From contig MEOG01000025.1 in the NCBI GenBank assembly GCA_001769125.1, positions 1-40,319 on the forward strand: a stretch of DNA of 40,319 nt, in the 5' to 3' direction. The position numbers and the translations under genes were made by a program. Source of the DNA: Bacteroidetes bacterium GWF2_35_48 (GTDB lineage Bacteria > Bacteroidota > Bacteroidia > Bacteroidales > GWF2-35-48). Of the stretch, positions 1,018 to 31,801 are shown piece by piece (the stretch's first letter is position 1; each line of letters opens with the position of its first letter). The notes beneath the pieces are model-generated. The model worked only from the letters and a program-made list of their open reading frames with translations, was not told the DNA's origin and did not search any database.

Positions 1018-1326
1018 ATGCAGAATATTGAAATAAAAACAGTGCATGCAATGTTTCAAATGCATTGCACGCACTTTCATTCTCACGATAAAAAACTTTG
1101 CCCCGATTGCCAGACTCTTGCTATGTATGCAGAACAGCGAATTAAAAATTGCGTATTCGGAAATAATAAGCCAACATGCAAAAAATGTCCGGTACATTGC
1201 TTCAATTCAAAAATGCGTGAAAAAATAAAATCCATTATGCGCTGGTCTGGTCCAAAAATGATTTATAAGCATCCATTTCTATGCCTGAAGCACATGATAC
1301 AATCATTTCGTTTTTCTTCATTCTAA
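1018..1326 (+). CDS. ygbA: YgbA-type nitrosative-stress protein (nitrous oxide-stimulated promoter family)
   Basis: This 102-residue cysteine-rich protein follows the whole pattern of the E. coli YgbA family: CPDC (28-31) in the N-terminal half, then the central block with GNNKPTCKKCPVHCF and MREKIKSIMRWSGPKM, and a C-terminal KHPFLCLKHM. YgbA is known in enterobacteria as an NO-induced gene controlled by NsrR and reported to help recovery from nitric oxide; its chemistry is unsettled. The conserved cysteines suggest a metal or Fe-S site. Here it follows a cupin by 6 bases and lies 2.7 kb upstream of nitrite reductase genes, a fitting context. The start is the ATG at 1018; in-frame Met 12 and 15 are less likely. 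I see no regulator site. Confidence 0.85.
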   Translation: MQNIEIKTVHAMFQMHCTHFHSHDKKLCPDCQTLAMYAEQRIKNCVFGNNKPTCKKCPVHCFNSKMREKIKSIMRWSGPKMIYKHPFLCLKHMIQSFRFSSF

Positions 1327-1355
1327 ATCGAATTAGTATTATTTTTGTTTTTAAA

Positions 1356-1385
1356 TTTGAATTTAACAAAAAAAATCTATTTTTG
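1356..1385 (+). promoter_or_regulatory. Bacteroidota-type promoter of the T9SS protein gene
   Basis: TTTG at 1356-1359, an 18-base spacer, and TATTTTTG at 1378-1385 match the TTTG / TAnnTTTG consensus of the Bacteroidota housekeeping sigma factor. Transcription would start near 1392, about 33 bases before the ATG at 1425. Confidence 0.5.
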
Positions 1386-1424
1386 CTCTGATGAAATTTA
1401 ATTATTAACCTAAACCCAAATGTT

Positions 1425-3737
1425 ATGAGAAAACTTACCCTGTTTATGGTTTTCGTATTGATAGGAACTCTTACCTATGCGATTAATCCTAAAAATCCTG
1501 TTAAAAAAACTACTACTTCCATGAAGTCAACAAGAAAAGTGCTTCTGGAAGAATTCACGAATGCTTCATGCGCTCCCTGCGCAGCAGCAAATCCTGCCAT
1601 CAATCAGCTTATTTTGGCAAATCCTTCCAAGTTAGCTGCAATTAAGTATCAAACAAATTGGCCGGGAGCTGACCCCATGAACGCACACAATCCTGGCGAA
1701 GTTGATACAAGAGTAGGTTTTTATCAGGTAAATGCCGTTCCCCATTCTGTTATTGATGGAGTATCCCTGAGCGGTCACCCCTCACAATCTTCTATCAACG
1801 CAGCTTTTGCTGTTCCTTCACCATTTATTATTCTTGTGAATCATCAGGTTTCCGCGGGTCAAATTACAGTTAATGCTACTATCAAAAAAACAGATTTAGC
1901 CACAGGAAATCTTGTTGTATTTATTGGTGTAATTGAAAAATATATTCATTTTGCATCAGCTCCGGGAACAAACGGTGAAACAGATTTCTACAGAGTAATG
2001 AAAAAAATGCTTCCCGGTGATAATGGCACTCCTCTAAATAATTTAAATATTGGCGAAACCCAGACAATCACTGAAAGCTGGACCCTTGCAAATGTTTATG
2101 ATGAAAGCCAGTTAAGCGCAGTAGTATGGGTTCAAAGCATTGATGACAGAGAAATTTTTCAGGCAGAAATGAGCGAACCTAATACTAGTAATGTTTTTGC
2201 GTTATTTGCTTGCGACAACATTATGGTTGCACCGGGAGCATCTGCTAACTTTACAGATGAATCAATAACTTCAACAGGAACAATTACAAACTGGGAATGG
2301 ACATTTGAAGGCGGAACACCCTCTACGTTCAGCGGACAAACTCCTCCTGCAATTTCATACAGCACTGTTGGATTCTACGATGTTCAATTAATTGTTACCA
2401 ATGATAATAATGATAAAGATACGCTTCTTATTCCCGAATACATTAATTGTAAAATTCCTGCCACAAGCGAGTGGATTATTCAGGCAAGTGGTTTTGCAAC
2501 TGCATCACGCGGAGCAATGTATCTTTCTGTTGCAAATTCAAATATAGCTTGGGCAATTGCAAATGATGGCTCAACCGGTGATGTTTTAAAAGAATTTACA
2601 AAAACCACTAATGGAGGTGTAACATGGACTCCCGGTACAATTTCTGGATTGCCAACATCGGCAGTTCCTTCATGCATCAGCGCAGTTGACGGAAGCACTG
2701 CTTATATTTCTACATACAGCAGTTCCGCTACTTCTGGACAATGTGGCGTCTTCCAGACTGTAAATGGTGGAACCACATGGACAAAACAAACAACGGCTAC
2801 CTACACAGGCACGGCTGCTTTTCCGAATATTGTACATTTTTTTAATGCTAATGATGGTATAACACAAGGGGATCCTAACGGTGGATACTTCGAGGTTTAT
2901 ACTACATCCGATGGCGGTACAACATGGACAAGAGTTCCTCAGGTTAATCTTCCTGCAATTGCTGCAAGTGATGAATATGGTTATACCAATATGTATGATG
3001 CTTATGGAGATAATTTGTGGTATGCAACAAACAAAGGAAGAGTATACAGATCTACCGATAAAGGCGCAACCTGGGCTGTTTCTGTAGTTCCTACTTTTAC
3101 AGATTTTTCAGAAATTGCTTTCAGTGATGAATTAAACGGTATGGCCGCGCAGATTACCTACAACACTTCTACAGGAGCAATAACTGCTGTTAAAATTGCC
3201 CGCACAAATGACGGCGGTGCTACATGGACTATTTTCACTCCGGGTGTTGGAGCTTATTTTTCATCTATAGCTGCCGTTCCGGGAGTTGCTAATAAATTTG
3301 TAAGCGTTGGTTATGATCAAAGTGGTAACCTTGGCTCTGCTTATACCGAAAATGCAGGAGATACATGGACAAACATTGATGAAGGTGTTCAGTACATCTC
3401 TGTTGATTTTTCTGACAACACCACAGGCTGGGCTGGCGGATTCAATCAAAGCGCAACTGAAGGTGGTATATACAAATGGCATTTGATTACTAAAACACCT
3501 TCTTTATTGCAAACGGATTATGCTATTTATCCTAATCCCAGCAACGGTATAATATCTTTATCATTAAAAGAAAATTCAAAAATCAAAGTTTTCAATACAT
3601 CAGGAACACTGGTTTTTGAAACAATAAAAGATTCAGAAAACAGCACGATTGACTTAACTTCTTTATCACATGGATTGTATCTTGTTCAGGTTGAATCAAA
3701 CGGAAGCATTTCGTCGAAAAAATTAATTATTCAATAA
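1425..3737 (+). CDS. T9SS-secreted protein: Omp28/thioredoxin-like, PKD, Asp-box repeats, sorting domain
   Basis: A 770-residue exported protein. Residues 1-19 are a signal peptide. About 36-255 is an Omp28-like thioredoxin-fold region with a CAPC motif at 49-52 (LEEFTNASCAPC). About 265-350 looks like a PKD domain (NWEWTFEGGTPST, then YSTVGFYDVQLIVTN). About 390-660 holds six Asp-box/BNR-type turns (such as TNGGVTW, SDGGTTW, NDGGATW) and is probably a beta-propeller. The last 75 residues form a type IX secretion sorting domain (YAIYPNPSNG start, GLYLVQVESNG and KKLIIQ at the end). It is therefore expected to cross the outer membrane by T9SS and be released or anchored on the surface. Substrate and activity are unknown. 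A strong hairpin terminator follows, so it is probably transcribed alone. Confidence 0.88.
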   Translation: MRKLTLFMVFVLIGTLTYAINPKNPVKKTTTSMKSTRKVLLEEFTNASCAPCAAANPAINQLILANPSKLAAIKYQTNWPGADPMNAHNPGEVDTRVGFYQVNAVPHSVIDGVSLSGHPSQSSINAAFAVPSPFIILVNHQVSAGQITVNATIKKTDLATGNLVVFIGVIEKYIHFASAPGTNGETDFYRVMKKMLPGDNGTPLNNLNIGETQTITESWTLANVYDESQLSAVVWVQSIDDREIFQAEMSEPNTSNVFALFACDNIMVAPGASANFTDESITSTGTITNWEWTFEGGTPSTFSGQTPPAISYSTVGFYDVQLIVTNDNNDKDTLLIPEYINCKIPATSEWIIQASGFATASRGAMYLSVANSNIAWAIANDGSTGDVLKEFTKTTNGGVTWTPGTISGLPTSAVPSCISAVDGSTAYISTYSSSATSGQCGVFQTVNGGTTWTKQTTATYTGTAAFPNIVHFFNANDGITQGDPNGGYFEVYTTSDGGTTWTRVPQVNLPAIAASDEYGYTNMYDAYGDNLWYATNKGRVYRSTDKGATWAVSVVPTFTDFSEIAFSDELNGMAAQITYNTSTGAITAVKIARTNDGGATWTIFTPGVGAYFSSIAAVPGVANKFVSVGYDQSGNLGSAYTENAGDTWTNIDEGVQYISVDFSDNTTGWAGGFNQSATEGGIYKWHLITKTPSLLQTDYAIYPNPSNGIISLSLKENSKIKVFNTSGTLVFETIKDSENSTIDLTSLSHGLYLVQVESNGSISSKKLIIQ

Positions 3738-3743
3738 TAAAAA

Positions 3744-3836
3744 ATAGGTTAAGGATTATAATTTTGGAGTGCTTCTTTCTCCCTGCCTGCTCGACGCAGT
3801 CAGGCAGGCTACCCCTATTCTTATTCCTTAATCTAT
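3744..3836. repeat. Long imperfect intergenic hairpin
   Basis: The outer arms 3744-3755 (ATAGGTTAAGGA) and 3825-3836 pair with one mismatch. Inside, CCTGCCTG (3782-3789) pairs perfectly with CAGGCAGG (3801-3808) around an 11-base loop. A related CCTGC/GCAGG hairpin lies at 11935-11961. It sits between the T9SS gene and its terminator. Confidence 0.5.
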
Positions 3837-3849
3837 AATAATATCAATC

Positions 3850-3891
3850 AAAGACCCGATATTTATCTCAAATAAAAAATATCGGGTCTTT
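3850..3891. terminator. Strong rho-independent terminator
   Basis: A 15-bp perfect stem (AAAGACCCGATATTT at 3850-3864 with its complement at 3877-3891) encloses a 12-base loop and runs into a T tract. It ends the T9SS gene transcript and separates it from nrfH. Confidence 0.85.
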
Positions 3892-3941
3892 TTCATTTCA
3901 ATATTAGGTAATTTAATACTTAAATGTTTATTTACGAAAAT

Positions 3942-3971
3942 TTTGTTTTTCAATTTTAATTTCTATTTTTA
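3942..3971 (+). promoter_or_regulatory. Probable promoter of the nrfHA operon
   Basis: TTTG at 3942-3945, 18 bases, then TATTTTTA at 3964-3971 give a one-mismatch match to the Bacteroidota consensus, with the same spacing as the promoter at 1356. The start point would be near 3978, about 43 bases before the TTG start codon. No convincing regulator palindrome is visible. Confidence 0.45.
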
Positions 3972-4020
3972 CCAAAACAACGCTATTATAAAAGAAATTT
4001 AGGAACTGTAATACTGAATT

Positions 4021-4653
4021 TTGCTGAAAAAAATTTTCCATATTTTTTATCTCATTGCTCCCTTTGGAAATTGGAGAATACCCGTTATTTTATTAAGCGG
4101 TATTTTTTCAGGTTTTGGTGCGTATGTTTTTTATATTTCCAACGCTCCCTCTTATCTTTCAGATTCTCCTACTACATGCGTAAACTGTCATATTATGGCT
4201 CCGCAATACACTACTTGGATGCACAGTTCACACCGGGAAGTTACAACCTGTAATGATTGTCATGTTCCTCATGATAATATTTTTCATACATATTTATTCA
4301 AAGCACAAGATGGAATTCGTCATGCAACGATATTTACATTGAGGAAAGAGCCACAGGTAATATTAATAAGAGAAGCCGGAATTGAAGTGGTGCAGGATAA
4401 TTGTGAGCGCTGCCACACGGAAATAATAGGAGAAATGGAACTTAACGGAAAAAATATAAAAACATGCAGATATTGTCCGCAATCCGGAGAAGAGGAAAAG
4501 GAAGGAGAAGAAAGGCTTTGCTGGGATTGTCACCGGGAAGTGCCACATGGCACAGTTAATAGTCTGTCAAGTACGCCCAATGCAAAAGTTCCTCTTCCAG
4601 AAAGCCCTGTGCCGGATTGGTTGAAAAAAGCAATGGAAAAAAATAAAAAATAA
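4021..4653 (+). CDS. nrfH: NrfH, membrane tetrahaem quinol-oxidising subunit of nitrite reductase
   Basis: NrfH takes electrons from menaquinol and passes them to NrfA on the outer face of the inner membrane. One membrane anchor spans residues 20-40. Four CxxCH haem motifs are at 53-57 (CVNCH), 77-81 (CNDCH), 128-132 (CERCH) and 167-171 (CWDCH), as expected for the NapC/NirT-type NrfH family. An extra CRYC at 149-152 lacks the histidine. The 210-residue length is somewhat above the usual 150-180, owing to an acidic insert near 156-165 and a Pro-rich tail. The start is TTG at 4021, because a stop at 4015-4017 closes the frame upstream and no ATG lies before the anchor. nrfA follows after 20 bases. 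Confidence 0.95.
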   Translation: MLKKIFHIFYLIAPFGNWRIPVILLSGIFSGFGAYVFYISNAPSYLSDSPTTCVNCHIMAPQYTTWMHSSHREVTTCNDCHVPHDNIFHTYLFKAQDGIRHATIFTLRKEPQVILIREAGIEVVQDNCERCHTEIIGEMELNGKNIKTCRYCPQSGEEEKEGEERLCWDCHREVPHGTVNSLSSTPNAKVPLPESPVPDWLKKAMEKNKK

Positions 4654-4673
4654 TCAACAAATAAATTTACAAT

Positions 4674-6179
4674 ATGAAACCCATAAGCGAAATTGTAAAG
4701 AAGAAACCCTGGTTTGGATGGTTTCTGTTTTTTTGTACAATGGCAGTCGTTTTCCTGCTTGGACTTTTTGCGTCGAGTGTTATGGAACGAAGAGCAGAAG
4801 CAGTCTTTGCATACAAGCCAACAGTAAAAATTAACGAGAATGAACCGAGAAATGAAATCTGGGGTAAAAATTTTCCAAGGGAATATCAATCTTATATTCA
4901 AACGGAAGATACCAGCTTCAAAAGCATGTATAACAGCAGCAACAATGACGATATGCTTGCGCATTATCCCAGGCTTGTTATTCTGTGGGCAGGATACGCT
5001 TTTTCAAAAGAATATAACCAGCCAAGAGGTCATTTATGGGCAGTAAAAGATGTAAGAGATATTCTTCGTACAGGTGCGCCAAAAAATGAAAATGAAGGTC
5101 CTATGCCAGGAACCTGCTGGACATGCAAAAGCCCTGATGTTCCGCGAATGATGAAAGAAATGGGAATTGAAAATTTTTATAAAGCAACCTGGGCTTCACT
5201 GGGAAAAGAAATAGTAAACCCTATTGGCTGCGCTGATTGTCATGATGCAGAAACGATGAACCTGCACATTTCGAGACCGGCATTAATTGAAGCATTTCAA
5301 AGGACAGGTAAAGATATTACAAAATCGAGCCATCAGGAAATGCGTTCATTAGTATGCGCACAATGCCATGTTGAATATTATTTCAAAGGCGATAGCAAAT
5401 ATCTGACGTTTCCGTGGGATAAGGGCGCTACGATTGAAGATATGGAAAAATATTATGACGAAATAAAATTCAGCGACTGGACACATTCAATAAGCAAAGC
5501 CCCCATGCTGAAAGCGCAACATCCCGATTACGAGGTTTTTAAGATGGGTGTTCATGCCGATAGGGGTGTCGCCTGCGCTGATTGCCACATGCCCTACGTG
5601 AATGAAGGCGGCGTGAAATACACAAATCATCATATAAAAAGTCCGCTTTCCCATATCAGCAAGTCTTGTCAGGTATGCCACAGACAAAGCGAAGAAAAAC
5701 TACGCACAAATGTGTATGAAAGACAAAAAAGCGTATTTCAGCTTCGTGATAAAGCCGAAGAACTTATTGTTAAGGCGCATTTTGAAGCGAAAGCAGCATG
5801 GGATGCAGGAGCAAAAGAAGATGAGATGAAAGATGTGTTGACGCTTATACGTCATGCGCAATGGAGGTGGGATTTTGTTGCAGCAGGGCATGGCAATTCT
5901 TTTCATGCGCCACTTGAATGTTCACGGATACTGGGCACTTCAATTGACAAAGCGCAGGAAGCGCGACTTCTCTTATCAAGAATTCTTGCTGCACATGGAA
6001 TAAATAAACCTGTTGCATTTCCTGATTTTTCAACAAAAGAAAAAGCACAAAAAATTGTTTGGCCTGACTTAGAAAAAATGAAAGCAGACAAAAAAGTTTT
6101 CAAAGAAACAATAGTCCCAAAATGGCTACAGCAGGCTAAAGAACGTGAAAGTAAATATCCTGTTTCTTCGTTTTTATGA
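4674..6179 (+). CDS. nrfA: NrfA, pentahaem ammonia-forming cytochrome c nitrite reductase
   Basis: NrfA reduces nitrite to ammonium with six electrons in the periplasm, and can also reduce NO and hydroxylamine. The active-site haem motif CWTCK, with its family-specific lysine, is at residues 148-152. Four CxxCH motifs follow at 186-190, 228-232, 301-305 and 332-336. The calcium-site and substrate-pocket region is recognisable in CHVEYYFKG (231-239) and in K280, Q282 and H283 of LKAQHPDY. An uncleaved N-terminal anchor or signal lies at about 14-33. The 501-residue length fits the family. It is co-transcribed with nrfH upstream. A structured repeat separates it from the cytochrome assembly genes downstream. 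Confidence 0.97.
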   Translation: MKPISEIVKKKPWFGWFLFFCTMAVVFLLGLFASSVMERRAEAVFAYKPTVKINENEPRNEIWGKNFPREYQSYIQTEDTSFKSMYNSSNNDDMLAHYPRLVILWAGYAFSKEYNQPRGHLWAVKDVRDILRTGAPKNENEGPMPGTCWTCKSPDVPRMMKEMGIENFYKATWASLGKEIVNPIGCADCHDAETMNLHISRPALIEAFQRTGKDITKSSHQEMRSLVCAQCHVEYYFKGDSKYLTFPWDKGATIEDMEKYYDEIKFSDWTHSISKAPMLKAQHPDYEVFKMGVHADRGVACADCHMPYVNEGGVKYTNHHIKSPLSHISKSCQVCHRQSEEKLRTNVYERQKSVFQLRDKAEELIVKAHFEAKAAWDAGAKEDEMKDVLTLIRHAQWRWDFVAAGHGNSFHAPLECSRILGTSIDKAQEARLLLSRILAAHGINKPVAFPDFSTKEKAQKIVWPDLEKMKADKKVFKETIVPKWLQQAKERESKYPVSSFL

Positions 6180-6203
6180 AAAATTTGGACTGAAACCAAA
6201 ATA

Positions 6204-6366
6204 ATAATATTCCGGTGCGCTGCACCTTTGTAAACAACGCAGCTATCGCTGCTACAAATGTTATCGCAGCTCTGCTGCTATATTTGGAATACAGCGGCAG
6301 AGCCGCAAAATATTTGTAAAATATAAAAAATATAGAAAGACCAAGGTGCAGAGCACCGTAATATCT
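6204..6366. repeat. Five-hairpin inverted element, copy 1
   Basis: The ends are inverted copies of each other: GGTGCGCTGCACCTTTG begins at 6214, and its inverted partner ends with GGTGCAGAGCACC at 6345-6357. Between them are three further short hairpins at 6239-6252 (GCAGC/GCTGC), 6266-6278 (GCAGC/GCTGC) and 6294-6306 (GCGGC/GCCGC). Flanking AATATT and AATATCTTTT are shared with copy 2 at 11672-11846. It lies between nrfA and resB and contains no gene. Confidence 0.75.
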
Positions 6367-6457
6367 TTTGCATGGATTAATAATAGTTTCAAATTTATAA
6401 AAAAAAAATAGTTCTTTTTCATGCGAAAGTTGAGTTTTTTAGTATTTCCAATATTTT

Positions 6458-6465
6458 TATTTTTG
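6458..6465 (+). promoter_or_regulatory. Possible -7 element upstream of resB
   Basis: TATTTTTG matches TAnnTTTG and lies 15 bases before the ATG at 6481. No well-spaced TTTG is present (the nearest TTG is 25 bases upstream), so this is weak. It favours 6481 over 6421 as the resB start. Confidence 0.25.
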
Positions 6466-6480
6466 TACAAAAGAAATCAA

Positions 6481-7701
6481 ATGAATAAAAGAAAAATCTG
6501 GCAATATCCCTGGACATACAAAGAAAGCGTTGTTATTGGACTTGGTTTTATTCTGATTGGTTTTGCGCTTGAAATTTTTTCTGATGGTAAAGGAGTTCAT
6601 CCCCCCGTTTTTCCTTATAATATTATTCTGCTGCTACAGCTGATTATTTTTATTCCTGCTATTTCTTTCTTCATGAAAAAACATCCGTTTATACAATGGA
6701 TGACAAGTGTACCTGCTGCGATTTCTGCAATTTTACTCATGACAATTTTTGTATTACTGATGGGCTTTATTCCGCAACAAGCTATACCGAATTCAATAGT
6801 ATCACGCATCGGACTAACTCATATTTTTGAAAGCTGGTCTTATCTGTTTATCACTTTATATCTGGTATTAATTCTTGGGTTCACTTTAGTAAAAAGACTT
6901 ACTCCCTTTTCAATAAAAAATACCGGATTCTTTTTAAATCATGCAGGTTTGTGGATCATAATAACAGCAGCCTCACTAGGAGCAGGAGATATTGAAAAAA
7001 GAACCATGTATTGTTATAAAGATAATCCTGCATGGCTTGGAATAAATAAATCAGGAGAGAAAAAAAACATGCCATTTGCGTTGGAGCTTTCAAAATTTGA
7101 AATACAAGAATACAGTCCCGAACTTGTTATAATTGATAATGCAACAGGAAAAATTCTATCAGACCAAAAAAAACTGCTGTCGCTGAAAAAAGGAGAAAAA
7201 AAAATCGTCTCCGAATGGAATGTTGAGGTTTTTGAATATTATAATTACGCTATTTGGTTTCACAATTCATTTAAACCGATTAAACAATTCGGAGCAGCTC
7301 CGGCAGCTAAGATAAAAGCAATACATATTGAAACAAAAGACACAATTAGTGGATGGATTTCTATTGGCAGTTATAAGGAAACACCGGTATTGCTTCCTGT
7401 TAACAATAATTCTTCATTTGCAATGACAGTTCCATCGCCCAAAAAATACCATTCAATTTTAAAACTGTATACACCTGATCAGAAAATAAACAAAATTGAC
7501 ATCGAAGTTAACAAGCCATTTTTTCACAAAGGTTGGTATTTGTATCAGACAGGATATGATGAAAAACAAGGCAGATGGTCGAACCTCAGTATTATTGAAG
7601 CAGTCAAAGATCCATGGCTCTATGTCGTTTACACAGGAATCTATATGCTGATAGCAGGGTCGGTTTTTTTATTCTGGCAAGGAAAAAAAATTAAAAAATA
7701 A
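6481..7701 (+). CDS. resB: ResB/CcsB-type cytochrome c biogenesis membrane protein
   Basis: A 406-residue membrane protein with transmembrane segments at the N-terminus (LGFILIGFALEIFS and the next two hydrophobic runs), one at about 150-170 containing LNHAGLWIIIT, a large extracytoplasmic domain, and a final helix (YTGIYMLIAGSVFLFW). This is the ResB arrangement of system II cytochrome c assembly, which with ResC/CcsA presents haem for attachment to CxxCH sites. I chose the ATG at 6481 because the protein then begins with MNKRKIWQYPW just before the first helix. An in-frame ATG at 6421 would add 20 residues. It overlaps resC by one base. Its clients are presumably NrfH and NrfA just upstream. 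Confidence 0.85.
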   Translation: MNKRKIWQYPWTYKESVVIGLGFILIGFALEIFSDGKGVHPPVFPYNIILLLQLIIFIPAISFFMKKHPFIQWMTSVPAAISAILLMTIFVLLMGFIPQQAIPNSIVSRIGLTHIFESWSYLFITLYLVLILGFTLVKRLTPFSIKNTGFFLNHAGLWIIITAASLGAGDIEKRTMYCYKDNPAWLGINKSGEKKNMPFALELSKFEIQEYSPELVIIDNATGKILSDQKKLLSLKKGEKKIVSEWNVEVFEYYNYAIWFHNSFKPIKQFGAAPAAKIKAIHIETKDTISGWISIGSYKETPVLLPVNNNSSFAMTVPSPKKYHSILKLYTPDQKINKIDIEVNKPFFHKGWYLYQTGYDEKQGRWSNLSIIEAVKDPWLYVVYTGIYMLIAGSVFLFWQGKKIKK

Positions 7702-8498
7702 TGGTTGGATATAAATATATTGCTCTGATTATTTTAGTCCTTTGGATTTTAGGATTGAGTACTCTTTATCTATTCTTCTCAAGAAAAAAAATCAGATTAA
7801 TTGGAGAGTTATTTTTAATTACCGGAGTATTAATTTCTGTTTTATACATCACGCTGCTTTGGATTAATTTAGAAAGAGCACCTCTGAAAACTCTTGGAGA
7901 AACACGGCTCTGGTATTCATTTTTTGTACCTCTCTTAGGGTTGATTATATATTACAGATGGAAAATAAAATGGATGCCCCTGTTTAGTTTTTTTCTTGCC
8001 GGAGTATTTGTGTTGATAAATGTTTTCAGACCCGAAAATTTTGACAAAGCATTGATGCCTGCGCTTCAGAGTGTTTGGTTTGTTCCTCATGTAATTGTAT
8101 ATATTTTTGCTTATGCTTTGCTTGCAGTCTCAACACTGTTTGCATTAAAAGGGCTTTGGCAGATTCAAAATAAAAGGTTTGATAATTCTTTACTCGACAT
8201 TGCAGACAACATTGTCTATATAGGTTTTGCTTTTCTGACATTCGGATTGCTTTTCGGGGCGCTATGGGCAAAAGAAGCCTGGGGGCATTACTGGACATGG
8301 GATCCAAAAGAAACATGGGCATTTCTCACGTGGTTGCTTTATTTGCTGTACATACATTTCAGGCACAGACATAAAGAACGCATAAAAATTTCCCTCTGGA
8401 TTCTTTCAATAGCTTTTATTATACTTCTTATTTGCTGGTTTGGTATTAATTATTTACCCTCTGCGCAAAACAGTGTTCATGTGTATTCTAATGGGTAA
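7701..8498 (+). CDS. resC: ResC/CcsA-type haem handling protein
   Basis: A 265-residue polytopic membrane protein carrying the haem-handling WWD-type motif at 194-208 (WGHYWTWDPKETWAF), flanked by conserved histidines at 130 (FVPHVIVY) and 260 (NSVHVY). This is the hallmark of CcsA/ResC, which moves haem across the membrane and keeps it reduced for the ligation reaction. About eight hydrophobic segments are visible. The start codon overlaps the resB stop (TAATG), so translation is coupled. Next to nrfHA it forms a dedicated cytochrome maturation pair; the lysine-ligated CWTCK haem of NrfA needs a specialised ligase in some bacteria, and this pair is a candidate for that role here. Confidence 0.9.
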   Translation: MVGYKYIALIILVLWILGLSTLYLFFSRKKIRLIGELFLITGVLISVLYITLLWINLERAPLKTLGETRLWYSFFVPLLGLIIYYRWKIKWMPLFSFFLAGVFVLINVFRPENFDKALMPALQSVWFVPHVIVYIFAYALLAVSTLFALKGLWQIQNKRFDNSLLDIADNIVYIGFAFLTFGLLFGALWAKEAWGHYWTWDPKETWAFLTWLLYLLYIHFRHRHKERIKISLWILSIAFIILLICWFGINYLPSAQNSVHVYSNG

Positions 8499-23532: not shown

Positions 23533-23898
23533 CTATTCGGAGTGTTTAAATTCTATACCCAATTGAAAACATAAGGCTTCTATTATTTCTCTTTGTTTAT
23601 CAGGATCATCAATAATACCGTATTCTTTGGAAAGCCTTTGCTTATCCATTGTCCGGATTTGATGGCAAAGAACAATAGAATCATTTGGCACTCGCCCCTG
23701 ACCAGATAGGAGCAAAGCTTCGTTTGGATAAACCTGTCTGTTTTGCTTCTTCGTTGTCAAAGGCAAAACATTGACAATATTCAGTAAGTCATTAATGTCA
23801 TTATCGCTTACAATAAGAACCGGTCTTGATTTTCCCTGTTCGGAACCTATCACGGGGTCAAGATTTGCACGCCAGATGCTCCACCTTTTAACTTTCAT
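23533..23898 (-). CDS. MazF/PemK-type toxin
   Basis: A 121-residue protein of the MazF/PemK endoribonuclease fold. Family marks are RWSIWRANLDPVIGSEQGKS with the conserved RPVLIVSDN directly after it, the central VLPLTTK, and VLCHQIRTMDKQRL. Members cut mRNA at short sequence motifs when freed from their antitoxin. The GSEQG-RPVLIVS segment with its arginine, and the TT pair, cover the usual active-site residues, so it may be functional. Its start overlaps the upstream small gene by 4 bases, typical of toxin-antitoxin translational coupling. It lies upstream of the suf operon, which runs in the same direction. Confidence 0.9.
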   Translation of the reverse strand: MKVKRWSIWRANLDPVIGSEQGKSRPVLIVSDNDINDLLNIVNVLPLTTKKQNRQVYPNEALLLSGQGRVPNDSIVLCHQIRTMDKQRLSKEYGIIDDPDKQREIIEALCFQLGIEFKHSE

Positions 23899-24122
23899 GC
23901 GTTTTCTTTATCTATGTGTTTGAAATCTTCATTTACCTCTGAAATGTCAGTCATAAAAAGGGGATCTTTAGCTGCCTGCTGTATCAACAGGAGCTTTTTT
24001 TCTTTCTCATCATCGGTGTTTTCAACAACTACAAGCACTTTTTTAAAGTTTCTGAATTGCTCAGGCAAAGTAACCAATATACGGTTATCATTGCCTAGTT
24101 CATACGTCTGTCGATATATCAT
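23895..24122 (-). CDS. MazE-like antitoxin
   Basis: A 75-residue protein immediately upstream of, and overlapping, the MazF-type toxin gene. The first 35 residues alternate in a beta pattern (YELGNDNRILVTLPEQFRNF, then KKVLVVVE) that could be an AbrB/MazE-like DNA-binding barrel half, and the C-terminal part is acidic (DPLFMTDISEVNEDFKHIDK), as needed to embrace a toxin. I recognise it by position and composition more than by a specific motif. It probably represses its own operon. A possible -7 element lies at 24172-24179. Confidence 0.75.
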   Translation of the reverse strand: MIYRQTYELGNDNRILVTLPEQFRNFKKVLVVVENTDDEKEKKLLLIQQAAKDPLFMTDISEVNEDFKHIDKENA

Positions 24123-24453: not shown

Positions 24454-27400
24454 ATGAAATTTATAGGCGATTTTCATATTCATTCTCATTATTCTCTTGC
24501 CACGAGTAAAGAATTGATACCGGAATTTTTAGATTACTGGGCAAGAATCAAGGGAATAAAAATAATTGGAACCGGAGATTTCACACATCCGAAGTGGACA
24601 GCAGAATTAAAAGAAAAAACGATACCTGCAGAGCAGGGTTTGTATAAATTAAAACCGGAATTGAAAAAAGAATTGCCTGTAAAAATTCCGGGTTGTGATG
24701 ATGAAACAAGATTCATGCTTACAGCGGAAATCAGCAATATCTATAAAAAAGGAGGCAAGGTACGAAAAGTTCACAATCTGATTTTCGCTCCATCCTTTGA
24801 GACCGTTGAGAAAATCCAGCAAACATTGCAAAGACAAAAATTCAACATTACTTCAGACGGGCGTCCTATATTGGGATTGGATTCCCGTAATCTTTTTGAA
24901 ATGCTTCTTTCCATTGATGAAAATATTTTTCTGGTGCCAGCGCACATCTGGACACCTTGGTTCTCGGCTTTGGGAGACAAATCGGGATTTGACACTATAG
25001 AAGAATGTTATGAAGATTTAACAAAATATATTTATGCTGTAGAAATGGGCTTGTCAAGTCATCCTCCGATGAACTGGGCAATCAGTTTTCTTGATAAATA
25101 TACGCTGATGGCTAATTCTGATGCGCACTCGCCAGAAAAATTAGGAAGAAATGCAAATATTTTCGATACAGAAATCTCTTACGACCACATAATACAAGCG
25201 TTAAAGCCAGAGAATCAAAAGACATTTCTGGGCACTATCAGTTTTTTTCCGCAGGAAGGCAAATATCATTTTGACGGACATCGGAAATGCAATATTTGCT
25301 GGACTCCTCTTGAAACGTTAAAGCACAACGAAATTTGCTCTGTATGCAATAAAAAAGTTACAGTGGGAGTCTTGTCCCGTGTTGCGCAATTAGCCGATCG
25401 AGAAGATATTTTGCAAAGAGAAAACAGGCATCCTTTTTTGAACCTGATTCCTCTGAAGGAGCTGCTTTCAGAAATATCAGGGAAAGGACCCAATTCAAAA
25501 GATGTAGCAAAAACCTATCATCATTTACTTCAAAAACTTGGTTCTGAATTCAACATTCTAATGCACATACCTGTTGATGAAATTCAAAAATCAGGAAATG
25601 AATTGTTGGCGGAAGCAATACGTAGAATGAGGAATGGAGATGTATATATTCAAGAAGGTTTTGATGGAGAATTTGGAGTAATTCGCGTAAGCCGTCCGGG
25701 AGAAAAAATTGTTTTGAAGAAGGCAAATCTTTTTAAAGAATCAGATATAGAAAATAAAAAAGAACAAAAACTATTAAGCTTTGACCTGAAAGAATATCAA
25801 AGGATAAGAGCTATTAAAAAATTGAATCAAAAAGATAATAAAACCGAAGAAATTGAGCAAAAAGAAAAAACGGGAAAATACGGACTAAACCCAAATCAGG
25901 AAAAAGCTGTTGAACATTTTAACGGTCCCGCATTAATTATAGCAGGACCAGGAACAGGAAAAACAAGAGTTCTTACATTTCGAATTGTTCATTTGATAAA
26001 CAGGCAAAGAGTTCTTCCTGAAAATATTCTTGCAATTACATTTACAAACAAAGCTGCATCTGAAATACGCGAACGATTAAAAAATCTTTTATATGATAAT
26101 TCAGCCGGAAACAAAGTAAGTGTTTCCACTTTTCATGCATTAGGTCTAACTATACTTAAAGAACATTTCTCAGCGTTAAACCGGACAAAAAATTTTATTC
26201 TAACAGATGAAGCGCAGAAAGAAGAAATCATGAAGAGCATAGCTGGTTGCGATAAAAAAATTGTATCCCGGATATTAGACGAAATTTCATTGGCAAAACA
26301 AAAACTATTTACCGCAAACGATATAGAAAACAAAGAAACGGCTCAATACTTTTTATCCTATCAGGAAGCATTGACCGAACGCGATGCTTTTGATCTGGAT
26401 GACCTTGTTTATGCTACAGTAAACATTTTAAGGGACTTTCCAGACATTGCAGCAAAATACAGAGCAAAGTTCAAATTTTTATTGGTGGATGAATATCAGG
26501 ACACAAATTATACGCAGTATATTTTCATTCGCAAATTAATGCCTGCATCCGATTCAAATTTATGTGTGATAGGCGACCCGAATCAGTCAATTTATGGGTT
26601 TCGTGGCGCAAATGTAGAATACATACAAAGGTTTACAGATGATTATTCAGAAGCAAAAGTTTATTCCTTAAATCAAAGCTACAGATGCTCTGACAAAATC
26701 CTTAAAGCGTCGGGAAATGTTATTAATGAAGGGAACTCAGCCCTTACAGGGATCAAAAAGGGAATCAAAATAAAAATTGTTCAACAGTCGTCTGAAAAAA
26801 GTGAAGCAGAATTTATTGCAAGAACCATTGAGAAAATGATAGGAGGCCTGCGCTTTTATTCTATAGATAGCAATGTTTCAGAAGGAGAAGAAGCTACAGA
26901 TATCAGCAGCCTTTCTGATTTTGCAGTTTTATGTCGGACAAAAGACCAATTTTTTGCAATACAAAAAGCGTTTCAAGATCATAGTATTCCCTGTCAGGTT
27001 GTGGGTCAAACCCCTTTTTATAAAAAAGAACCGATAATTTCTGTCCTTAACTTCATGCGCCTTGCAGCAAATCCAAAAAATGAATTTTTACTGAAAGAAA
27101 TATCAGAAAAAAACGGTTTAAAAAAAGATGATTATAACTGGATAAAAAAAGAGCTTTCCGGAAAAACAGTTGAGGAAGTCAGTCTTAATATTATTGACCG
27201 ATTTTTCAAAGAAGAAAAAAAATTGAAACCCGATTTATTTCTACAATTTGCTGAATGGATAAAAGGGAATGAGCATTCTCTTTCAGATTTTATTGAATTT
27301 TTAAATCTGGGAACTGAGGCAGACTCTTATATTCAAAAATCAGAGAGTGTTGCATTGATGACGATACACGCATCCAAGGGTCTTGAGTTTAAATGTGTAT

Positions 27401-27678
27401 TTATTGCGGGATGTGAAGAAGGGCTTCTCCCCTACTCTATTTATGAAAAACTAAAATCTGACAGGGATGAAGAAAAAAGGTTATTATATGTTGGGATGAC
27501 CCGGGCAGAAAAATATCTCTACCTTACCCACGCAGAAAGGCGCATTATTCATCATAAAGAACATCGTTTGCAAAAAAGTTCATTCTTAAATGCTATAGAA
27601 AAAGAGTTAATAGAACAAAGCAAAGCAGAAGTTAAAAAGAAAACGGATAAGAATGCGGGGCAGATGAGTTTGTTTTAA
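24454..27678 (+). CDS. EndoQ-like PHP endonuclease fused to a UvrD/PcrA-type helicase
   Basis: A 1074-residue two-part protein. Residues 1-425 look like endonuclease Q: PHP metal motif DFHIHSH (6-12), later histidines and NSDAHS (221-226), and a four-cysteine zinc site (C279, C282, C295, C298) between the PHP domain and a C-terminal helical region. EndoQ, known from Thermococcales, some methanogens and a few Bacillus, nicks DNA 5' of uracil, hypoxanthine, xanthine or abasic sites. A charged linker (425-475) leads to a full SF1A helicase: GPGTGKT (498-504), TFTNKAASE, VDEYQDTN, GDPNQSIYGFRGA, LNQSYRC, TIHASKGLEFK and LLYVGMTRAEK. Both halves seem intact. The natural reading is a lesion-nicking enzyme whose own motor unwinds from the nick. 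It is a single gene with its own terminator. Confidence 0.88.
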   Translation: MKFIGDFHIHSHYSLATSKELIPEFLDYWARIKGIKIIGTGDFTHPKWTAELKEKTIPAEQGLYKLKPELKKELPVKIPGCDDETRFMLTAEISNIYKKGGKVRKVHNLIFAPSFETVEKIQQTLQRQKFNITSDGRPILGLDSRNLFEMLLSIDENIFLVPAHIWTPWFSALGDKSGFDTIEECYEDLTKYIYAVEMGLSSHPPMNWAISFLDKYTLMANSDAHSPEKLGRNANIFDTEISYDHIIQALKPENQKTFLGTISFFPQEGKYHFDGHRKCNICWTPLETLKHNEICSVCNKKVTVGVLSRVAQLADREDILQRENRHPFLNLIPLKELLSEISGKGPNSKDVAKTYHHLLQKLGSEFNILMHIPVDEIQKSGNELLAEAIRRMRNGDVYIQEGFDGEFGVIRVSRPGEKIVLKKANLFKESDIENKKEQKLLSFDLKEYQRIRAIKKLNQKDNKTEEIEQKEKTGKYGLNPNQEKAVEHFNGPALIIAGPGTGKTRVLTFRIVHLINRQRVLPENILAITFTNKAASEIRERLKNLLYDNSAGNKVSVSTFHALGLTILKEHFSALNRTKNFILTDEAQKEEIMKSIAGCDKKIVSRILDEISLAKQKLFTANDIENKETAQYFLSYQEALTERDAFDLDDLVYATVNILRDFPDIAAKYRAKFKFLLVDEYQDTNYTQYIFIRKLMPASDSNLCVIGDPNQSIYGFRGANVEYIQRFTDDYSEAKVYSLNQSYRCSDKILKASGNVINEGNSALTGIKKGIKIKIVQQSSEKSEAEFIARTIEKMIGGLRFYSIDSNVSEGEEATDISSLSDFAVLCRTKDQFFAIQKAFQDHSIPCQVVGQTPFYKKEPIISVLNFMRLAANPKNEFLLKEISEKNGLKKDDYNWIKKELSGKTVEEVSLNIIDRFFKEEKKLKPDLFLQFAEWIKGNEHSLSDFIEFLNLGTEADSYIQKSESVALMTIHASKGLEFKCVFIAGCEEGLLPYSIYEKLKSDRDEEKRLLYVGMTRAEKYLYLTHAERRIIHHKEHRLQKSSFLNAIEKELIEQSKAEVKKKTDKNAGQMSLF

Positions 27679-27713: not shown

Positions 27714-28040
27714 CTAATAGCGTTTTTTATTATAACCGCCGCCGCCGCCGCTGCCGCCTTGTCTGTTGGAGTTAAAGTCATTGCTCTTTCTTTCAGTTCT
27801 TGGTCTTGCTTCTGAAACAGCCATTTCTTTTCCATCGTAGATAGCTTTGTTCAATTCTTCAATTGCTTTGTCAGCTTCAGCAGGGTTTGTCATTTCAACA
27901 AATCCAAAACCTCTTGATCTGCCGGTAAGCTGATCAATAATAACTTTTGCAGAAGTTACTTCTCCAAATTCTTCAAAAACTTTTTTTAAATCGTCGTTCG
28001 TTACTCTGTAACTGAGATTCGCAACATAAATGTTCTTCAT
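27714..28040 (-). CDS. RRM-type RNA-binding protein
   Basis: A 108-residue protein with one RNA recognition motif: RNP2 IYVANL (4-9) and RNP1 RGFGFVEM (43-50), with the conserved aromatics, followed by a Gly-Ser-rich basic tail ending in KKRY. Bacteroidota lack Hfq and ProQ in many lineages and instead carry such RRM proteins (Rbp family), which bind single-stranded RNA and act as global post-transcriptional regulators. The tail (about 80-108) is probably disordered. A good promoter places the transcript start near 28155, leaving a 115-base leader that could be used for cold response or self-control. Confidence 0.93.
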   Translation of the reverse strand: MKNIYVANLSYRVTNDDLKKVFEEFGEVTSAKVIIDQLTGRSRGFGFVEMTNPAEADKAIEELNKAIYDGKEMAVSEARPRTERKSNDFNSNRQGGSGGGGGYNKKRY

Positions 28041-28451: not shown

Positions 28452-30002
28452 TTATTGAAAGAAAAATCTTCCGAATTTGTATTTATTTCCTTTTTGGCAA
28501 AATACGAAATAAGCATCTTTTGTTTTAAGAAGGAGTCTTGCGGAAGTAGAAGTTTTGGCGTCATCGTCTTTAAACATGGGAGATTTCTCGAATGAACCAT
28601 CCTGAAAAACGGTCAAAACAATAGCTTGTCCGTCATCTTCTTTGGTTTGTTTTATTTTATCTCCATTTTGTGTATTTTCCTTTATATTTTTCGGATGATC
28701 GTTCATAATAAATTTGACCTGATTCCCTTCTGCTGCAATTGCATAAGAACCCCATCTGCCATCATCATCGCGGCTGAACTGGTTTTTGCAAATACGTTTA
28801 ATCCACAGCATTTTCCCGTCTTTATCTGCTGCTGCAACAACAATATCATTATAAAAATGCTGTGTGAAACGTTCTTCAGTTTTAGTTGTAGGATTTTGAA
28901 TTATCTGTAAAGTAGACATCGTGTATTCCGCAACCAGTATGGCTGTTCCGTTTTTCAAAAAAACAATCTGATTCAAATCAAAGCTAAAAACATCTTCGGG
29001 TTTACCATCTTTTTGTAGATTTCTTTCTTTTCTGAATTCCATATTCATTTCTGAAGTAAAAGGTACAGCTTCGAGTTTTGGATCCACTTGAAGGAATTTA
29101 TAAGTTCTGGGATTAATTCTTTTATAAAAAGCACCTGTCATATCGGGTTGTGATTTTTTCCCCATAAAACCCATAATAACAATTTCCTCTTTCTCATCTA
29201 AAACCATTGTTGCACTATGCACCGGATTTTTCTGTAATGTTAGATTGTACGATTTAAATTCATCCTTTTTAGCATTATAATGTAACACGATAAATTCGTA
29301 TACTTTGGGCGCAGTAGCCGCAGCTTTTTTCGTGCTTACAACTTCTGCTTTAATCAACATATAAAGATCTCCGCTTTTTCCTAACAAATACTTTTGAATT
29401 GTAAACTCTCTGTCTTTAAGAGGCAGTTCAAGATTTTTATTAAATAATTCTGTAAGCGTGGGATCAAATATTTTAAAAGCTAAAGGTTCTCCACTATATT
29501 TTGTGAATGTTTTATGATACTCTAACAAAATTTTGGAATGTTCTTCAAAAGTAAAAACATTAAAGCCATCCTTGCCATTTGACGGAGGAATTGCGCCTAT
29601 TTCCTTGGGCTTATTATTAAGCGTACCATCTTTGTTTATATATTGTACGTAGCAAATTTTCTGCTTCCTGTTCTCATCATTAATTGATGTATAGAGAATC
29701 AGGTTACCGCCCATATAGAACATTTTTTCATACGTTGAAGTTACCCCCTGAATACTCGGCATCAAAAGTTCTTTAGATGATTCAACGGTGTTGGTTGTTC
29801 CGTTAAAATATTCAAGGAAAAGACTTCCGGCACGATTTGATTTTAGGATGTAATATCCTTCTTTGTCTGCACCCAGCATTTTTTCTATATTATCGCCTTT
29901 TTCAAGGTTGTTAAAAGGACCCCAGTCAACATCGAGTGTTTGAGCCATTGCAAAACTTACAAATCCGATAAGGAAACAAAAAAGACTTACATGTTTTTTC
30001 AT
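28452..30002 (-). CDS. Unrecognised secreted protein of Bacteroidota
   Basis: A 516-residue protein that I cannot place in a named family. Residues 1-20 form a clear signal peptide (ending FAMAQ). The mature part is rich in beta-strands and repeats a pattern of hydrophobic strand, charged turn and aromatic, with phrases such as EGYYILKSNRAGSLFLEYFN, ILLEYHKTFTKYSG and GTAILVAEYTMSTLQI, suggesting a propeller-like or repeated beta-sheet domain. No sorting domain, lipobox or catalytic motif is visible. It is probably periplasmic. A promoter with a good TTTG lies 24-54 bases upstream. The gene is not closely linked to its neighbours. Confidence 0.65.
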   Translation of the reverse strand: MKKHVSLFCFLIGFVSFAMAQTLDVDWGPFNNLEKGDNIEKMLGADKEGYYILKSNRAGSLFLEYFNGTTNTVESSKELLMPSIQGVTSTYEKMFYMGGNLILYTSINDENRKQKICYVQYINKDGTLNNKPKEIGAIPPSNGKDGFNVFTFEEHSKILLEYHKTFTKYSGEPLAFKIFDPTLTELFNKNLELPLKDREFTIQKYLLGKSGDLYMLIKAEVVSTKKAAATAPKVYEFIVLHYNAKKDEFKSYNLTLQKNPVHSATMVLDEKEEIVIMGFMGKKSQPDMTGAFYKRINPRTYKFLQVDPKLEAVPFTSEMNMEFRKERNLQKDGKPEDVFSFDLNQIVFLKNGTAILVAEYTMSTLQIIQNPTTKTEERFTQHFYNDIVVAAADKDGKMLWIKRICKNQFSRDDDGRWGSYAIAAEGNQVKFIMNDHPKNIKENTQNGDKIKQTKEDDGQAIVLTVFQDGSFEKSPMFKDDDAKTSTSARLLLKTKDAYFVFCQKGNKYKFGRFFFQ

Positions 30003-31224: not shown

Positions 31225-31392
31225 GATGGTTGTGGGTTGCATACGAAGATTGAGCGGCTTGCAGTGTGATGTGTTGAGGACATTGAGCCTGTCGAAATGC
31301 CGAAACAAGCGAAGTGCCGCACTGCGATGCGCTGAGCCTGCCGAAGTGAGTTAGCCAAAGTGTCGAATTGAGTCAAAGTCAAGGTTGCAGGT
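31225..31392. repeat. Cluster of degenerate constant-loop hairpin units
   Basis: This gap holds several diverged relatives of the TGAGCGGAGTCGAA word: GATTGAGCGG (31249), CATTGAGCCTGTCGAAATG (31282-31300), CGCTGAGCCTGCCGAAGTG (31330-31348) and GTCGAATTGAGTC (31362-31374). The second and third are each closed by short complementary arms (CAT/ATG, CACT-like). It ends in GGTTGCAGGTT beside the HEPN gene. No gene. Confidence 0.45.
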
Positions 31393-31801
31393 TATTAGCT
31401 GCATTATCGTTAATTCCAGTAATTTGCAAAGCGTATGTTCGAAAATATTCAGCAATATTTATAGCATACTCAAGTTCCTCTTTTGATAAGAAAATTATTT
31501 TATTTGGATAGCGAATTTGAACACTAAATCCATTTAATTTAATTGCCATGTTAAAAGTGTTTTCGTCTATATCATTTTTTTGGGAAAGTAAGTCTAAAAG
31601 ATAAATTAAATCATGTGATCGTAAAAATTCAATTTCATAAAATATCAATGCAGATTTTATATATTTTTCTACAGCTTGTTGGCAATGAAACGCAATTGTA
31701 TCAAAGTACTCTGGAATATGAATAAATATTATTTTAGCCGATCCCAAGTCATGATCTGCTTTATCAATCCAATCTTTGATATGTTTTAGATCAGCGCTCA
31801 T
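31379..31801 (-). CDS. HEPN-domain protein of an MNT/HEPN pair
   Basis: A 140-residue HEPN protein. The four-helix pattern includes WIDKADHDLGSAKIIF, then FHCQQAVEKYIKSALIFYE with the conserved QQAxEK, then LRSHDLIYLLDLL holding the family histidine, and QIRYPNK. HEPN proteins encoded next to a minimal nucleotidyltransferase can act as RNase toxins or as partners in substrate binding; the full Rx4-6H RNase motif is not obvious, only RSH. It overlaps the nucleotidyltransferase gene by 11 bases and follows it in one operon. Confidence 0.88.
   Translation of the reverse strand: MSADLKHIKDWIDKADHDLGSAKIIFIHIPEYFDTIAFHCQQAVEKYIKSALIFYEIEFLRSHDLIYLLDLLSQKNDIDENTFNMAIKLNGFSVQIRYPNKIIFLSKEELEYAINIAEYFRTYALQITGINDNAANNLQP

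Follow-up and report, generated by a model that had tools for sequence, protein, structure and literature searches.

A 40,319-nucleotide stretch of contig MEOG01000025.1 from Bacteroidetes bacterium GWF2_35_48, here called the window, carries a gene in which an endonuclease Q (EndoQ) domain is joined to a UvrD-type helicase of superfamily 1A (SF1A). The reading frame (24454-27678, + strand) starts with ATG, has no internal stops and encodes 1074 amino acids (aa). An earlier note on this DNA had described it as a single frame with an EndoQ-like N terminus followed by a complete SF1A helicase, and the frame, the homology and the fold were all found. The motifs listed there are likewise in the sequence (DFHIHSH at residues 6-12, NSDAHS at 221-226, and C279, C282, C295 and C298).

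The two halves of the EndoQ-UvrD protein

Two checks had been proposed for the N-terminal half, a comparison of residues 1-425 with EndoQ and an overlay of the predicted structure on a solved one, and both returned EndoQ. Residues 4-414 match residues 4-384 of PfuEndoQ (5zb8) over the whole length (phmmer, E = 1.4e-53), the match to 7k30 is nearly as strong (E = 7.2e-53), and the three solved-structure sequences that match residues 1-425 are all EndoQ (5zb8, 7k31, and 7k30). The predicted model superimposes on 5zb8 with Z = 48.6 (389 residues, 2.6 A) and on 7k30 with Z = 46.9 (391 residues). Pfam finds a weak PHP_C match alone in this half (5.1e-05), and a domain that is only generically PHP is ruled out by the whole-length EndoQ homology and the fold.

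Residue conservation was read from 110 homologues (87 fused and 23 stand-alone, with 4 contig-edge rows excluded). The eight PHP metal-site residues, whose presence the earlier note had left to an alignment, are kept: H8, H10, D42, E92, H107, H164, D223, and H225 are unchanged in all 110, apart from one row gapped at H8/H10. E92, H107, and H164 are the counterparts of Pfu E76, H84, and H139, and alanine substitutions at these three Pfu positions abolish cleavage according to the portion of PMC8307549 consulted. The same portion holds that Pfu G169 and S171, with H139, exclude T and A from the pocket; both align with residues invariant in the 110 homologues, G199 and S201. Active-site residues were also looked for in PMC11354406, with no hit. 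The four-cysteine zinc site proposed in the earlier note survives in part. C279, C295, and C298 are unchanged in the 110 homologues; C282 is a cysteine in 43 of them, lies opposite a lysine in Pfu, and is rejected as a ligand on conservation. Because C282 is so poorly conserved, while H276 is nearly invariant (His in 112 of 114 rows, Cys in 2) and lies opposite a Pfu cysteine, the site is probably H276/C279/C295/C298, with the ligand roles taken from the alignment.

The claim of a complete UvrD/PcrA-type helicase in the second half is borne out by the SF1 motifs and the 1A/2A core. Within residues 478-1028, Pfam reports UvrD_N/UvrD-helicase (8.2e-77) and UvrD_C (1e-46); the best solved-structure match is PcrA 1pjr (3.6e-86), and the model superimposes on UvrD 4c2u with Z = 43.3 (562 residues, 2.8 A). 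Foldseek was also run on the model. A set of 44 full-length fused proteins shows conservation of motifs I, Ia, II (DEYQD), III, IV, V, and VI. The 2B region falls between two phmmer stretches, with positions 413-489 of the query opposite 414-552 of 1pjr, and its length ranges from 80 to 176 residues among the 44 proteins (111 in the window protein). SF1A motors have 3'-to-5' polarity.

The AlphaFold2 model, computed with the 44 full-length fused proteins as input, has a mean predicted local distance difference test score (pLDDT) of 86.5 and a predicted template modelling score of 0.66. In the linker, pLDDT drops below 50 at residues 424-436 and 463-475, around a helix predicted at 445-472. Most of the tail (1059-1074) is also of low confidence.

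A separate PcrA-like gene scoring above 500 bits is present in 18 of the 20 genomes examined (the exceptions are G001 and G048), including the window's own genome (747.7 bits). A FastTree phylogeny of 107 helicases, which gave long-branch warnings, groups all 18 housekeeping PcrA-like proteins in a single clade (support of 99), and the fused helicases fall outside it. UvrD-type helicases encoded next to a stand-alone EndoQ are dispersed among the fused ones, with at least five changes forced by the starred branches; two of them (L072 and L089) group weakly beside the PcrA clade.

Features of the EndoQ-UvrD gene, in window positions
Feature	Position	Strand	Size or basis
EndoQ-UvrD gene, complete (EndoQ domain / linker / UvrD-type SF1A helicase / C-terminal clamp-type motif)	24454..27678	+	1074 aa
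EndoQ domain, aa 1-414: PHP nuclease core, Zn-binding and C-terminal parts	24454..25695	+	phmmer, TIGR00375, fold
Zinc-site stretch, aa 276-298, likely ligands H276/C279/C295/C298	25279..25347	+	alignment
Degenerate internal clamp-type motif KKANLF, aa 422-427, closing the EndoQ domain	25705..25734	+	
Charged linker	25723..25884	+	predicted helix aa 445-472
UvrD/PcrA-type SF1A helicase, aa 478-1058, motifs I, Ia, II, III, IV, V, VI	25885..27627	+	
2B-subdomain region, aa 846-956, shorter than in PcrA	26989..27322	+	phmmer vs 1pjr
C-terminal beta-clamp-binding motif QMSLF (putative), aa 1070-1074	27661..27675	+	

Spread, gene coupling and the terminal motif

EndoQ is present in 12 of 99 genomes around the window's own, sampled at nearly all points as one per family of the window's order; 10 of these carriers have the fused form and 2 a stand-alone one (G005 and G095). 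A scan of genome contigs returned at least 565 EndoQ relatives, of which the best 80 were kept for analysis. A threshold of E = 1e-5 places UvrD sequence in the same open frame in 62 of these 80, and a threshold of E = 1e-10 does so in 60; the frame is interrupted in two of the 62 (L028 and L048). Of the others, 16 are stand-alone and 2 run off their contigs. The nearest named record among the matches listed is a metagenome-assembled genome (MAG) of Bacteroidia (L014). By record title, the fused copies would belong to Bacteroidota, Thermodesulfobacteriota, Chloroflexota, Calditrichota, Planctomycetota, Spirochaetota, Gemmatimonadota, and others. The records are mostly MAGs, with one complete chromosome, that of Desulfonema magnum, whose class (Desulfobacteria) has EndoQ in 174 of 192 sampled genomes (E <= 1e-20). 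Among 30 Desulfobacteria loci fetched, the frame reaches at least 1087 aa in 23. Since the fusion also occurs in a genome of the same genus (G001/L014), in many other records and on the complete D. magnum chromosome, an assembly artefact or local oddity is ruled out.

The earlier note's description of EndoQ as mainly archaeal, found in a few Bacillus and normally a separate protein, fits the papers; the genomes depart from it, with hundreds of bacterial homologues and most of the best 80 fused. Viral contigs, plasmids, and phages that were searched gave no EndoQ-UvrD match, which speaks against a mobile or viral origin. No description of an EndoQ-UvrD fusion was found in the open-access full texts searched. 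The EndoQ and UvrD halves are of known kinds; what is new is that they are combined, how widely this occurs and the clamp motif at the end of the protein.

The two parts are also encoded side by side. Downstream of 10 of the 23 stand-alone EndoQ genes lies a UvrD-type gene on the same strand, EndoQ always coming first. Measured on stop-to-stop frames, nine of the ten UvrD frames start at -172 to +73 bp relative to the stop of EndoQ, and one starts after 884 bp. In four of the ten pairs the helicase frame continues the EndoQ reading frame past the stop codon. At four loci (L072, 6854; L076, 2381; L197, 2934; L207, 2763) the EndoQ and UvrD frames are parted by one in-frame stop, for which fission, a recent break and separate starts are all possible. 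The functional coupling of the domains that the earlier note had proposed from one protein is therefore supported more widely, by recurrent fusion and by adjacent EndoQ-then-UvrD genes.

The window protein ends in QMSLF, a conserved terminus absent from the earlier note. This pentamer fits the canonical clamp-binding pattern Q-aliphatic-x-[L/M]-[F/L] given in the consulted part of PMC11139829. The form Q[LMI]x[LM][FL] occurs within the last 14 residues of 43 of 50 complete fused proteins (from L014-L093, and related rather than independent) and of 1 of 1156 other frames in the loci (stop-to-stop frames of at least 150 aa, many of which are not genes). Shuffled tails of the 50 proteins gave a mean of 0.2 and a maximum of 2. 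With an aliphatic residue or Ala allowed at its second position, the pentamer stands at the very end of 28 fused proteins, while 11 have one residue after it and 5 have two. The seven fused proteins without Q[LMI]x[LM][FL] end in QLSFF (three), QLRLI, QLPLKF, or QAGLF (one each) or, in L070, have no motif. The terminal motif is present in 7 of 7 complete-ended split UvrD partners, and the pentamer is present in 0 of 18 housekeeping PcrA-like proteins. Of the stand-alone EndoQ frames, 5 of 24 have the pentamer, and a further 8 of 23 have a looser version of it.

A related pattern, Qxx[LFMI][FLYW], closes the EndoQ part of 32 of the 44 full-length fused proteins, the window protein not among them; this would fit a helicase joined on after an EndoQ whose own end already bore such a motif. 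Archaeal EndoQ binds PCNA through a C-terminal PCNA-interacting protein (PIP) box (dissociation constant of 55 nM) and is stimulated by it, and clamp consensus sequences in bacterial EndoQ homologues were noted there, without testing (PMC4858679, in the part consulted). Judged from its sequence and conservation, the QMSLF-type tail likely marks a new client of the bacterial sliding clamp.

Uracil glycosylases and genomic neighbors

In the 99 genomes of the window's order, Ung (TIGR00628 over its cut-off) is present in 1 of 12 EndoQ carriers and in 73 of 87 other genomes (Fisher, 3.6e-7); the latter figure counts as present a contig-end fragment below the cut-off in G053 and is strictly 72 of 87. 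On an rpoB tree the carriers are dispersed, with 10 changes. The tree holds 94 of the 99 genomes; G044, G047, G079, G083, and G089 had no usable rpoB. A likelihood-ratio (LR) test of dependence gave LR = 28.1 (p = 1.2e-5) for EndoQ and Ung and LR = 15.9 (p = 0.003) for EndoQ and any member of the uracil-DNA glycosylase (UDG) superfamily; this Pagel-type test was run with our own script on the midpoint-rooted FastTree phylogeny, with a flat root prior and some rates at or near their bounds. Greedy pairing over all branches in 300 random orders gave 9 to 10 pairs, of which 4 to 9 were opposite and none were the same (median p of 0.016, range of 0.004 to 0.125), a result that leans on weakly supported branches. 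TIGR00628 was found in none of six EndoQ-bearing genomes from other groups.

Among the carriers, G051 and G084 have a family-4 UDG over its cut-off, G090 encodes a divergent Ung, and in the genome of the window itself there is only a weak UDG-like protein. Two carriers encode divergent UDG-superfamily proteins, one in the window's genome (L222, 352-1002, - strand; C103) and the other at L223 (158-919, + strand); one of the two scores 25.4 bits against TIGR00758 and the other has no NCBIfam match at 1e-5. EndoV was considered as a background factor and explains nothing here, since it is present in 3 of the 99 genomes and in none of the carriers.

The window neighbors of the gene are mainly housekeeping (SUF genes). 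Adjoining it are a PemK/MazF-type toxin gene (PF02452) and an overlapping 75-aa antitoxin-like frame (23533-23898 and 23895-24122, both on the - strand). Convergent with it is a gene for a small RNA-binding protein of RRM type (PF00076) whose tail is rich in glycine (27714-28040, -); a 516-aa frame (28452-30002, -) has no Pfam match at E = 0.001; and a HEPN-domain protein (31379-31801, -) overlaps a nucleotidyltransferase (PF01909; 31791-32105, -) as a HEPN/MNT-type pair.

Across the collected loci, most large clusters of neighboring frames are antisense or shifted frames of the EndoQ-UvrD gene itself. Seven loci from Desulfobacterales or "Deltaproteobacteria" records have dnaN and gyrB within 8 kb upstream, transcribed away from EndoQ-UvrD (L049 at 1042-7974 on the - strand, L042, L050, L055, L067, L075, and L086); dnaN was above its cut-off in five loci scanned with NCBIfam and gyrB in one scanned. 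With 7 loci out of the 54 of 80 that have at least 5 kb upstream, this is a clade-specific neighborhood, and no gene neighborhood conserved across phyla was found beyond it. At L049, EndoQ-UvrD also has beside it a gene for an OmpA-like protein and a weak match of RdgC type.

Proposed repair mechanism and its alternatives

Both domains, the conserved metal-site residues and helicase motifs, the recurrent gene coupling and the conserved terminal motif are computed here, and the reading of them that we favor, with some reserve, is a "nick and peel" enzyme, tethered to the sliding clamp, for glycosylase-free long-patch repair of deaminated bases. Like the EndoQs characterized elsewhere, from which its nicking activity and substrates are carried over, the EndoQ domain would recognize a deaminated base (uracil or hypoxanthine) or an abasic site and nick immediately 5' of the lesion, giving a 3'-OH and a downstream strand whose 5' end carries the lesion. 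The motor fused to it would load at the nick, move 3' to 5' along the intact strand and peel off the lesion-bearing strand as a 5' flap. This geometry is proposed because EndoQ, in the published accounts as far as consulted, cuts 5' of the lesion and because of the SF1A polarity. QMSLF would keep the enzyme tethered to the beta clamp, allowing a polymerase to take over the 3'-OH, and flap trimming and ligation would complete long-patch repair without a glycosylase. For this protein we infer the polarity of the motor, which way it unwinds from the nick, its binding to the clamp and the downstream steps.

Several known systems come close to this protein. With EndoQ itself (PfuEndoQ 5zb8/7k30, TkoEndoQ, and B. 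pumilus EndoQ) the window protein shares the alignment over residues 4-414, the predicted fold, the catalytic residues, a probable Zn-binding part and, going by the consulted part of PMC4858679, a clamp-type motif; it differs in its fused UvrD-type motor, in a clamp motif that stands at the helicase end and is degenerate at the EndoQ end, in H276 in place of the Pfu Cys and in its score against TIGR00375. The PCNA-coupled EndoQ of Thermococcales likewise nicks 5' of a deaminated base and has a C-terminal clamp-binding motif, but it is a separate protein and binds PCNA rather than the beta clamp; no helicase partner is mentioned in the part of PMC4858679 consulted, and the word "helicase" does not occur in that paper. 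With PcrA, UvrD, and Rep (1pjr, 4c2u, 2is1, and 1uaa) all SF1 motifs and the overall fold are held in common, whereas the score against TIGR01073, the shorter 2B region, the separate clade and the terminal pentamer set the window protein apart. The action proposed for EndoQ-UvrD, a nick followed by a PcrA-type motor on the intact strand, resembles that of RepD-PcrA of rolling-circle plasmids, in which the nick gives a 3'-OH and the motor displaces the 5'-ended strand. RepD, however, is sequence specific and becomes covalently attached, RepD and PcrA are separate proteins, and they serve replication rather than repair. Gabija GajB, AddAB, and AdnAB also have a UvrD-type motor acting with a nuclease, but their nuclease domains are unrelated to EndoQ and their roles are in defense or double-strand breaks.

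Several observations weigh against the nick-and-peel reading. TIGR00375 matches residues 6-410 (E = 4.9e-45) at 154.5 bits, below its curated cut-off of 326.6; this cut-off also excludes one control match, since two of the three control genomes with a match (B. subtilis, M. jannaschii, and M. acetivorans) exceed it. The second half scores 437.5 bits against TIGR01073 (pcrA), below the cut-off of 911.2, and the motor is thus UvrD-like rather than PcrA itself; the separate PcrA-like genes of the 18 genomes likewise fall below that cut-off. As 13 of the 23 stand-alone EndoQs have no nearby UvrD (at L061 only 72 bp of sequence was available downstream, and at another five at most 1.5 kb), an adjoining motor is not obligatory. 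Short motifs such as the terminal pentamer can arise by chance, and 6 of the 18 PcrA-like proteins have a hexameric variant (QLLLKF type) near, not at, their ends. When the hexamer pattern is added, the last 14 residues score in 45 of 50 fused proteins, 6 of 18 PcrA-like proteins and 5 of 1156 other frames, and the last 8 residues score in 45 of 50, 0 of 18, and 0 of 1156, respectively. A UDG-superfamily match of some kind is present in 6 of the 12 carriers (versus 82 of 87 others; Fisher, 2.9e-4), and an independent-pairs test on the starred branches yields four pairs, too few for significance. In Desulfobacteria, EndoQ (174/192) coexists with UDG-superfamily matches (187/192), and the five genomes without a UDG all have EndoQ, as do nearly all genomes of the class. 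Finally, a 3'-to-5' motor might in principle unwind either side of the nick.

Because EndoQ and UDG coexist in Desulfobacteria, EndoQ-UvrD is not a general substitute for UDG, and universal replacement is ruled out. At most, it allowed Ung loss in some lineages, and the "alternative to glycosylases" is at best lineage specific. The earlier note's "self-contained alternative to uracil or hypoxanthine glycosylase repair" holds in part: carriers in the window's order are mostly without Ung, but Desulfobacteria have UDG beside EndoQ, and the protein would depend on other enzymes as well, namely a polymerase, a flap nuclease and a ligase.

The same coexistence with UDG, together with the nearby dnaN and gyrB, would suit an EndoQ domain that has lost its lesion specificity and works as a general flap or displaced-strand nuclease-helicase in replication or recombination, like AddAB or Dna2; combinations of a UvrD motor and a nuclease are a known theme, and AddAB and GajB are among the matches. 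We consider this unlikely, given that the positions of Pfu pocket residues H139, G169, and S171 are unchanged in 110 of 110 homologues, that the whole EndoQ fold is kept, and that carriers in the window's order tend to be without Ung. The flexible, low-confidence linker and the stand-alone EndoQs without an adjacent UvrD would in turn fit two independent domains, fused for coexpression only, with EndoQ repairing alone and the motor acting as PcrA does in clearing RNA polymerase or RecA. This is quite improbable when a separate PcrA-like gene already exists in 18 of 20 genomes, the fused helicases form a lineage outside the PcrA-like clade, and split helicases share the terminal motif, the pentamer of which PcrA-like proteins do not have.

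Anti-phage defense, in which EndoQ would attack uracil-containing or otherwise modified phage DNA and the UvrD part would unwind it or break it down, in the manner of the UvrD-like GajB of Gabija, has in its favor PADLOC GajB models that match the helicase (best score of 322.6 bits), the patchy occurrence in the window's order (12/99), and a suggestion, relayed in the consulted part of PMC8307549, that bacterial EndoQ may aid antiviral defense. We hold it to be very improbable. The PADLOC matches lie on the UvrD part only (of 49 families, the 25 listed include none that matches EndoQ), the gene is present in 174 of the 192 Desulfobacteria genomes, plasmids, phages, and viral contigs gave no match, and the window neighbors are mainly housekeeping, though MazF-type and HEPN/nucleotidyltransferase pairs are among them.

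The recurrence of the EndoQ and UvrD pairing in many bacterial groups suggests, from the genes themselves, a DNA-repair machine. Carried further, the clamp-tethered repair reading would make it a new bacterial excision-repair pathway, in which a clamp-bound polypeptide or gene pair finds the lesion, nicks 5' of it and unwinds, having replaced Ung in several lineages and being near-core beside UDG in Desulfobacteria; we offer this wider proposal tentatively, as one that could well go either way. If it is true, one polypeptide or gene pair does the work of a glycosylase, an apurinic/apyrimidinic (AP) endonuclease and a strand-displacing helicase. Work on EndoQ has so far dealt with it as a small enzyme, found mainly in archaea. 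The genomes point to a partner for it, a UvrD-type motor that is fused or adjacent in many bacterial groups and has a terminal clamp motif. What follows the EndoQ nick thereby becomes a testable question, and a reason is offered for how some bacteria may manage without Ung.

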